This document shows, one piece after another, positions 57,459 through 59,249 of a DNA stretch of 63,102 nucleotides; position 1 is the stretch's first letter, and each line of letters begins with the position of its first letter. This DNA is from Actinomycetota bacterium. Its GTDB lineage: Bacteria > Actinomycetota > Geothermincolia > Geothermincolales > RBG-13-55-18. The notes below the pieces were generated by a model, which did no database searches, was not told the DNA's origin, and was given only the letters and a program-made list of their open reading frames with translations. The stretch lies in assembly GCA_013178005.1 (NCBI GenBank), contig JABLXL010000025.1:1-63102 (forward strand), read 5' to 3'. The position numbers and the translations under genes were made by a program.

Positions 57459-58097
57459 GTGGAGCGGGAACCTTTCAGGGCATGGAAGGCAGCGATCGCG
57501 ACCATCGCACCCTTGATGATCGCTTTCACACTCATCGCGGGGTGTGGTAAGGAGAAGACGGCCGTGCCGGAAACGGCAGGGCTTAACGTCGCGGAAGCGG
57601 AGGCGGCACTCCACGAGGCAGGCCTTAAGCTGGGAGCGTTGGTGGAGGACTTCTCGGATGCCGTGCCGCGGGGCAAGGTCGTCTCCAGCGAGCCGGGAAG
57701 CGGCAGCCATGTTGAACTGGGCTCAGAGGTCGAGCTTACCGTAAGCCGGGGACCGGAGAAGGTCACGGTCCCCTCGGTGCTGGGCATGGCGGAAGCGGAA
57801 GCCGTGTCCATCCTTGACGAGCTGGGTTTCCGGGTCGAAATCAAACGCGCGTACAGCGAGGACACAGCTCCCGGCCTCGCCTGCGGTTTGGACCCGAGTC
57901 CTGGCACGGTAGCGGCGAACGGCTCCGCCATAACCTTGACCATAAGCGAGGGGTCAGCGTATGTGACCTGCTCAAATTGCAACGGAAGCGGCATACTGAC
58001 AAGTTCTTCCACCTGCGCGCGCTGCGGGGGGACGGGTACCGTGGCATACGAAGAGACCTGTCCGGAATGTGGAGGCAGCGGGCTTTGCCCCACTTGA
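57459..58097 (+). CDS. PASTA-domain lipoprotein with DnaJ-type zinc-finger motifs, ending at an in-frame TGA
   Basis: GTG start at 57459; 212 aa to the first stop. The signal peptide ends in lipobox LIAGC (C29). Two PASTA-like domains follow (about 35-98 with GLNVAEAEAALHEAGL; about 102-165 with PSVLGMAEAEAVSILDELGF), which usually bind cell-wall fragments. Then come CxxCxGxG motifs: CSNCNGSG, CARCGGTG and CPECGGSG. The fourth motif reads CPT-stop-GG: the TGA at 58095 (codon 213) replaces the expected Cys, and three more motifs continue in frame. It may be truncated by mutation or contain selenocysteine. Confidence 0.85.
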   Translation: MEREPFRAWKAAIATIAPLMIAFTLIAGCGKEKTAVPETAGLNVAEAEAALHEAGLKLGALVEDFSDAVPRGKVVSSEPGSGSHVELGSEVELTVSRGPEKVTVPSVLGMAEAEAVSILDELGFRVEIKRAYSEDTAPGLACGLDPSPGTVAANGSAITLTISEGSAYVTCSNCNGSGILTSSSTCARCGGTGTVAYEETCPECGGSGLCPT

Positions 58098-58244
58098 GGG
58101 GGCGCGTACGTGCCGTGCGGTTCGTGCGGCGGAACCGGCAGGATAACGAAGGCTCACGGCTGTCCTGATTGCGGCGGGGATGGGACGGTGCGCCAGAAGG
58201 CCACCTGTTCCACCTGCGGTGGATCGGGTAGGGTGCGCCGCTGA
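58098..58244 (+). other. In-frame continuation of the zinc-finger lipoprotein after TGA, with SECIS-like hairpin
   Basis: The same frame stays open from the TGA to a stop at 58242-58244, encoding CGSCGGTG, CPDCGGDG and CSTCGGSG and ending GRVRR. Read through, the protein would be 261 aa. Hairpin 58112-58130 (8-bp stem GCCGTGCG/CGTGCGGC with two G-U pairs, loop GTT) begins 15 nt after the TGA, with its G-first loop 23 nt after it, a geometry compatible with bacterial SECIS elements. Confidence 0.6.
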
Positions 58245-58430: not shown

Positions 58431-59249
58431 CTACCGCTCTTCGGTCGAGGGTTCCGCGTCTGCCTGTGCCTTCTCACCGCCTTCCCCTACTGCCGACATT
58501 TCGCTTTCCGCCGTTTTCCTCTCCCTGTAGTAGAGAAGAAGGCCGGCGGCGCAGGAGGCGAGGGCGAGGCTCGCCGCCTGGAAGAAAAGGCCCGCCCGCG
58601 CGTCGGCGTGGAAGCGGAAGAACTCGTTTATAAACCGAACCAGGCCGTAGCCCGCCAGGGAGAGCAAAAAGAGGTCCCATCCTCGCCGCAGCCTCTTCCT
58701 CGCCGCCAGCAGGAAGGCGAATAGCGCCAGGTCCAGGACCATCTCGTAAAGCTGGGTGGGATGCACGGGAGAAAGGGAGCCGGGGAAGGTGACGGCCCAG
58801 GGCAGGCCGGAGGGCTTGCCGCCGCAACAACCGTTGAGGAAGCAACCCACCCTGGCGATGGCCAGGGAGAGGGGCAGGGCCAGCCCCACGGAATCGGCGA
58901 CATCCCCCGCGGGGAGCCCGAGCCGCCTGACCAGAAGCAGGCAGGCCGGCACGGCGAGGGCGAGCCCGCCATAGTAGACCAGCCCGCGCATGTTGAAGTC
59001 GATGACCCTGCCCCAGTCCCCGGAGAACTCCTCCAGGTGTCCCAGGACGTAGAACAACCTGGCCCCCAGCACCCCGCTTATGGCCGCCACCGCGCCGATG
59101 AGATAGATGGCGGAGCTGTCGAGGCCGCGCCTCGCCAGTTCCGCGCGCGCCACCATTATCCCCGCCAGAAAGGCGAGGAAGAGCATCACCCCGTAGGAGT
59201 ACACGGGGTATGAGCCGATGTGAAAGAGCACGGGCCGCACCGCGTCCAC
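58431..59249 (-). CDS. lgt: Prolipoprotein diacylglyceryl transferase
   Basis: Adds diacylglycerol to the lipobox Cys of prolipoproteins in the membrane. 272 aa, seven membrane segments, with signature ARVGCFLNGCCGG, YGGL before it and SPVHPTQLYE. The C-terminal 25 residues are charged and variable. A GTG start at 59249 is used. The window also encodes several predicted Lgt clients. Family A repeat copies lie about 110 bp upstream. Confidence 0.96.
   Translation of the reverse strand: MDAVRPVLFHIGSYPVYSYGVMLFLAFLAGIMVARAELARRGLDSSAIYLIGAVAAISGVLGARLFYVLGHLEEFSGDWGRVIDFNMRGLVYYGGLALAVPACLLLVRRLGLPAGDVADSVGLALPLSLAIARVGCFLNGCCGGKPSGLPWAVTFPGSLSPVHPTQLYEMVLDLALFAFLLAARKRLRRGWDLFLLSLAGYGLVRFINEFFRFHADARAGLFFQAASLALASCAAGLLLYYRERKTAESEMSAVGEGGEKAQADAEPSTEER

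Follow-up and report, generated by a model that had tools for sequence, protein, structure and literature searches.

An exported PASTA lipoprotein with an in-frame TGA in a DnaJ-type zinc domain: very probably a selenoprotein and the founding member of a new family

The stretch of DNA analysed here (the window) comprises 63,102 nucleotides of contig JABLXL010000025.1 from an Actinomycetota assembly (GCA_013178005.1). Close to its end lies a gene that starts at 57459 and contains an in-frame TGA at 58095-58097; reading through this codon adds 48 further codons up to a second TGA at 58242-58244 (ORF translation). The features of the locus are as follows.

57459..58244, + strand: predicted complete selenoprotein gene, GTG start, TGA stop, 261 residues with Sec213; nine orthologues align over the whole length
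57459..57545, + strand: signal peptide and lipobox, LIAG-C29 (from sequence)
57561..57746, + strand: PASTA domain 1 (Pfam PF03793, best stretch, residues 35-96)
57753..57953, + strand: PASTA domain 2 (second PF03793 stretch and structural model; boundaries approximate)
57969..57992, + strand: additional CxxCxGxG motif (alignment; only in the window gene and in genome G014)
58014..58037, + strand: DnaJ-type motif 1, CxxCxGxG (alignment to the DnaJ Cys-rich domain, 1exk)
58059..58082, + strand: DnaJ-type motif 2 (alignment to 1exk)
58086..58097, + strand: CxxU dyad C210-P-T-U213; C210 and TGA213 invariant in 10 of 10 orthologues
58095..58097, + strand: in-frame TGA, almost certainly decoded as selenocysteine (TGA in 10 of 10 orthologues, no Cys form found)
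58111..58131, + strand: candidate bacterial SECIS-type hairpin, 9-bp stem, loop GUU, 22 nt between TGA and loop
58116..58139, + strand: DnaJ-type motif 3 (alignment to 1exk)
58161..58184, + strand: DnaJ-type motif 4 (alignment to 1exk)
58206..58229, + strand: further CxxCxGxG motif (alignment; only in the window gene and in genome G014)
58431..59249, - strand: neighbouring lgt, prolipoprotein diacylglyceryl transferase (NCBIfam)

The whole-length alignment has two reservations on the side of the relatives, as one orthologue (L019) runs off the end of its contig, so that only its remaining part aligns, and another (L030) contains an assembly gap. A hydrophobic N-terminus ending in a lipobox-like Cys was seen in all nine copies with an intact N-terminus when the alignment was inspected by eye. 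The PASTA assignment is firm: the whole protein matches PF03793 in two stretches with 98.8 bits (cut-off 23.2, E 1.7e-28), AlphaFold predicts both domains confidently with many residues above 90, and in a fold search the model resembles solved PASTA structures, namely those of PknB/PrkC. The zinc domain is modelled with moderate to low confidence, and the Cys-rich region scores 25.8 bits against PF00684, below the Pfam gathering score of 32.7. Its motifs 1-4 nevertheless match E. coli DnaJ (1exk) in order and over the whole domain length; in one orthologue (L018) motif 4 is without its first Cys. Pfam and NCBIfam profile searches of the window protein returned no match to a J domain. Two more CxxCxGxG motifs are carried by the window gene and its closest relative.

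The codons around the TGA read TGC CCC ACT TGA GGG GGC, that is C-P-T-U-G-G. A sequence-only reading of the window had described this TGA as in frame and followed by three CxxCxGxG motifs, both of which are correct. It had also taken the TGA for a Cys position of the fourth CxxCxGxG motif; here the CxxU pattern stood and the position did not, because in the alignment to 1exk the TGA forms the second half of an additional dyad in the loop between motifs 2 and 3, a place where E. coli DnaJ has no Cys. The alignment therefore indicates that the eight zinc cysteines are kept and that the Cys-Sec pair is extra.

To follow the codon through related organisms, orthologues were searched in the family (15 genomes) and then in the order, class and phylum (396 genomes). 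Nine further intact or nearly intact genes were found, sharing 35-60% identity with the window protein. Eight of them belong to the same family (L013-L019, L030), and the ninth, L090, comes from a different family of the class. All ten genes carry TGA at the same codon, none TGC or TGT, in the shared context C-P-x-C-x-G-[ST]-G-x-C-x-x-U-x-G, and motifs 3 and 4 then follow in every orthologue. The homologue alignment proposed in the sequence-only reading thus gave a uniform answer, with the same motifs continuing in all nine relatives and none ending at the TGA. SelB was found in each of the ten genomes carrying the gene. An independent DNA pattern that permitted TGA, TGC or TGT at the Sec codon was run over the 396 genomes of the phylum; its ten matches with TGA were exactly the ten genes, and its single match with TGT is an unrelated small protein. 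Neither this pattern nor the homologue search found a Cys form of the gene among the 396 genomes.

Several candidates for Cys homologues were examined and rejected. L051 and L092 combine PASTA with DnaJ-type motifs yet have no extra dyad, and L109 is a small Cys protein of no relation. A scan of public genome contigs yielded no more than a 36% Hydrogenedentota match, in which no CxxCxGxG-rich domain was seen. Of the two PASTA proteins, one (L077/L051, G015:C27) is a lipoprotein that has four DnaJ-like CxxC motifs and so the same two-domain arrangement without Sec; the other (L092, G016:C70) bears a long CxxCxGxG array at its end, and SelB was not found in its genome, G016. Two degraded copies of the selenoprotein gene itself also exist. 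One (L078, G009:C126:3500-5500) lies beside lgt, like the gene in its relatives, and is heavily decayed, the corresponding codon no longer being TGA and many of its cysteines lost, and the other (L076, G015) is frameshifted and retains both TGA and hairpin; hence the gene can be lost. A second TGA-plus-hairpin copy was not found in the window genome, where the sole other match has two mismatches and a reversed control gives equally many.

The course of divergence along the gene points to translation of the sequence after the TGA in the same frame and under coding constraint. On the 3' side of the hairpin, divergence is 0.60 at third codon positions versus 0.33 and 0.29 at first and second positions, and the corresponding upstream values are 0.59 (third), 0.42 (first) and 0.33 (second). 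The pN/pS ratio is 0.32-0.60 after the hairpin versus 0.47-0.67 before the TGA, and length changes among the orthologues keep the frame.

The core of the window hairpin (58112-58130) reads GCCGTGCG-GTT-CGTGCGGC. Its coordinates had been given correctly in the sequence-only reading; the first base of the loop is G, and a ninth pair, U-G, extends the stem to 58111-58131. The bacterial SECIS (bSECIS) model allows an apical loop of 3-9 nt in which one of the first two bases is G, a stem of 4-16 bp, a spacing of 16-37 nt and an energy of at most -7.5 kcal/mol (PMC13188914), and the window hairpin, at -11.7 kcal/mol, conforms to it. In stem, loop and spacing all ten genes do so, with stems of 6-9 bp, loops of 3 or 6 nt that have a G at the first or second base, and a spacing of 16-22 nt; their energies range from -7.4 to -11.7 kcal/mol, and the two genes at -7.4 lie marginally above the limit, by 0.1 kcal/mol. 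Taken by itself the hairpin counts for little, since an equally strong one arises in 4-12% of synonymous recodings, which justifies the earlier caution that repeated Cys codons themselves favour hairpins. It was accordingly dropped as a proof in its own right, and tests of synonymous constraint and covariation were used instead.

At codons +5 to +9 after the TGA, 161 of 161 pairs with like amino acids use identical codons versus 68 expected from the genes' own codon usage, the highest synonymous constraint of 187 windows along the gene. The family uses two hairpin registers, with a loop of either GUU/GUA or CGUGCA. The latter is found in six genes, among which L090, the most distant, has changes on both sides of three base pairs without loss of pairing; 100% of cells in this group are paired, and only 2 of 500 shuffles match the three double-sided changes. 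The compensatory events are nevertheless few, as all three changes stem from this one sequence. In the two-register comparison the window gene's own register shows no compensatory change because its pairs hardly vary. A single conserved hairpin for all genes was also considered and discarded: RNAalifold run on nine genes gave an invariant 6-bp stem without covariation, and two registers fit better. The loop GGUCU of the formate dehydrogenase genes in the window genome, which occurs at similar spacing, is like the GGUUC of the window hairpin, as a resemblance only.

The window genome (3.6 Mb in 98 contigs, about 97% complete) holds the Sec machinery for which the sequence-only reading had proposed to search. 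Profile searches detected SelA (E 1e-154) and the SelB C-terminal domain, a tRNA with UCA anticodon is tRNA-Sec according to both Rfam and ARAGORN, and selD, on the same contig as the other Sec machinery genes (C49), has a TGA at its own catalytic residue (KSG-U-AAK). The cluster on this contig (L079, L001) consists of the Sec-containing selD followed by a small SirA/YedF-like gene, selA, selB and selC. The selenoproteome was sampled by family searches, which yielded four formate-dehydrogenase-like genes with an in-frame TGA at the Sec site U-H-S-x-T-V.

G000:C25:31625-32896: formate-dehydrogenase-like gene L071, in-frame TGA at the Sec site
G000:C12:109945-111228: formate-dehydrogenase-like gene L072, in-frame TGA at the Sec site
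G000:C6:31474-32745: formate-dehydrogenase-like gene L073, in-frame TGA at the Sec site
G000:C33:4997-6580: formate-dehydrogenase-like gene L075, in-frame TGA at the Sec site

UGA is thus read as Sec at other places in the window genome, which has the full machinery and TGA at the known Sec sites of formate dehydrogenase and SelD. With normal gene calling, all four formate-dehydrogenase-like genes would be broken in two at their TGA. The genome also encodes a Sec-tRNA-like tRNA-Cys (G000:C33:22273-22362, - strand; also L003:1497-1590) of about 94 nt with a long variable arm. Its score with the Rfam tRNA-Sec model is 65 bits, against a gathering score of 47, yet its anticodon is GCA and ARAGORN identifies it as tRNA-Cys.

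The case for Sec rests on the conserved TGA, the synonymous positions and the pairing taken together. Selenocysteine, which the sequence-only reading had put forward as a candidate, is now supported by the same TGA codon in all nine orthologues, by frozen synonymous positions and by conserved pairing, and on this comparative evidence TGA 213 of the window gene is almost certainly read as Sec. That the gene is instead a pseudogene in which a Cys codon became TGA, by a recent nonsense mutation or through an assembly error, offered earlier as the simpler alternative, would accord with the existence of decayed and frameshifted copies in relatives (G009, G015), but the same TGA stands in ten independent genomes with coding constraint behind it and a synonymously frozen hairpin, and the decayed G009 copy, from which many cysteines are gone, is precisely a copy without TGA at the corresponding codon. 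Sequencing error is untenable because ten independent assemblies carry the TGA, and we reject mutation and assembly error as having virtually no chance of being correct. It is very improbable, too, that the codon is translated as something other than Sec, either by general readthrough or because UGA has been reassigned to a standard amino acid. Translation plainly continues past the codon, Cys would be tolerated in the dyad, and a tRNA-Cys of Sec-tRNA-like length and shape is present, though with anticodon GCA and not UCA; on the other hand, TGA is the terminal stop of eight of the nine first-found family members including the window gene, the genome has a full Sec cassette with a UCA-anticodon tRNA, the formate dehydrogenase and SelD sites show that UGA means Sec when a hairpin follows, and a frozen hairpin would not be needed for reassignment.

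At every Sec UGA, the insertion of Sec has to compete with termination. This competition would permit the UGA to act as a selenium-dependent switch that yields a functional short form at low selenium and a functional full form otherwise, and the short form, made up of the PASTA part and half a zinc domain, would indeed retain both PASTA domains. It would, however, stop after zinc motif 2 and be without motifs 3 and 4, and no sequence feature marks a function for it, so that we regard such a switch as unlikely.

On the preferred reading, UGA 213 is very probably decoded by SelB and tRNA-Sec under the direction of the stem-loop just downstream, as the comparative evidence indicates; either of the family's two hairpin registers may be the one that SelB binds. 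The domains suggest that the product is exported as a lipoprotein and that the lipid and the two PASTA domains hold it at the cell envelope, where the latter may bind the cell wall. The additional Cys-x-x-Sec dyad would be displayed in the loop that joins zinc motif 2 to motif 3 of the DnaJ-type Cys-rich domain, whose eight Cys may hold two zinc ions as a rigid scaffold. Motif and scaffold are consistent with a C210-U213 pair that cycles between the selenol/thiol and the selenenylsulfide state, and outside the cytoplasm this cycling may let the protein reduce disulfides, shuffle them or remove oxidants. DnaJ-type domains have been credited with oxidoreductase activity in some proteins, whereas the measured activity of ZnJ2 was independent of its cysteines (PMC5818400). 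A thiol/selenol redox role, to which the CxxU motif and the DnaJ-type scaffold point, is somewhat favoured, and the product is probably a surface-anchored thiol/selenol oxidoreductase.

The main functional rival to a redox role is that the CxxU of the selenoprotein binds a soft metal or metalloid (mercury, arsenic, selenium) for capture or resistance and does not take part in thiol-disulfide exchange. Metal-related selenoproteins have been catalogued, namely SaoL/MerB-like proteins, MbdU and a mercuric transport protein (PMC13188914), and an arsenite methyltransferase gene adjoins the selenoprotein gene in G004 (L101:1526-2338) and G003 (L102:857-1684). The arsenic-related neighbour occurs in these two related genomes only, though, while lgt, adjacent in the window, is also the neighbour in most other relatives, and the neighbourhood comparison showed no metal-resistance genes conserved beside the gene; metal or metalloid binding is hence a possible but doubtful function. 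The relatives compared have no conserved operon, the neighbours being lgt and housekeeping genes that indicate no pathway. G003, G004 and the distant G029 have another neighbouring gene family in common, which matches nothing in Pfam.

Altogether we assign a probability of about 0.88 to the reading that the gene encodes a selenoprotein, of which this is the founding description as a new family, with a likely thiol/selenol redox role of the exported lipoprotein. It is filed as a new family because the NCBIfam selenoprotein models gave no match (only PASTA kinase, DnaJ-like and other non-selenoprotein models matched, below cut-off), no comparable PASTA, DnaJ or lipoprotein entry is among the 119 prokaryotic selenoprotein families and subfamilies catalogued in 2026 (PMC13188914), and a full-text search for PASTA-domain selenoproteins, mainly over papers outside subscription, returned a single paper, apparently on comparative mycobacterial genomics. 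The best reading is thus a new family, on a scaffold with no Sec-bearing precedent in these sources.

The catalogued CxxU selenoproteins (GrdA, SelW-like, AhpD-like, DUF1858 and others) likewise have the UGA at the second dyad position, a hairpin just downstream, and SelB and tRNA-Sec in the genome, but neither a DnaJ-type zinc domain nor a PASTA lipoprotein is listed among them (PMC13188914). The FmdB-family zinc-ribbon selenoprotein is likewise a small Cys-rich, putatively metal-binding protein with Sec (PMC13188914); it belongs to a different family, in which UxxU replaces CxxC cysteines, whereas the window protein keeps its zinc Cys and adds a CxxU. With the DnaJ Cys-rich domain (PF00684, 1exk) it shares the same four motifs in the same order, but it has no J domain, would lie outside the cytoplasm and has a shorter loop between motifs 2 and 3 that contains the extra CxxU. 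LQY1, a DnaJ-type zinc-finger protein of plant thylakoids with reported disulfide isomerase activity (PMC5818400), is also a membrane-linked stand-alone zinc domain; compared by description only, it differs in being a plant protein with neither Sec nor PASTA. The PASTA kinases Stk1/PknB (NF033483) have PASTA domains that the two of the window protein resemble, but the window protein is without a kinase domain, has a lipid anchor in place of a transmembrane one and scores 102.6 against the NCBIfam cut-off of 450.

Many selenoproteins are thioredoxin-like. Most selenoprotein families, moreover, have many Cys homologues (PMC12013277), and that none turned up among the 396 genomes tells to some degree against the selenoprotein reading. 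As the new family has no Cys counterpart in these genomes and is not thioredoxin-like, a search built on Cys homologues would overlook it. We see an even chance that it is a Sec-only family in which an extracytoplasmic DnaJ-type zinc finger has been turned into a surface selenol oxidoreductase by a CxxU inserted between the two parts of a single zinc site, with the chemistries of zinc and selenium then acting jointly at the cell wall. Ordinary gene calling stops at every TGA and would truncate the window gene as well as other TGA-containing genes in uncultured Sec-decoding lineages. The protein would add selenium to the DnaJ-type zinc finger, a class of scaffold with a debated redox role, and would offer a natural system in which this role is testable by a one-residue change.
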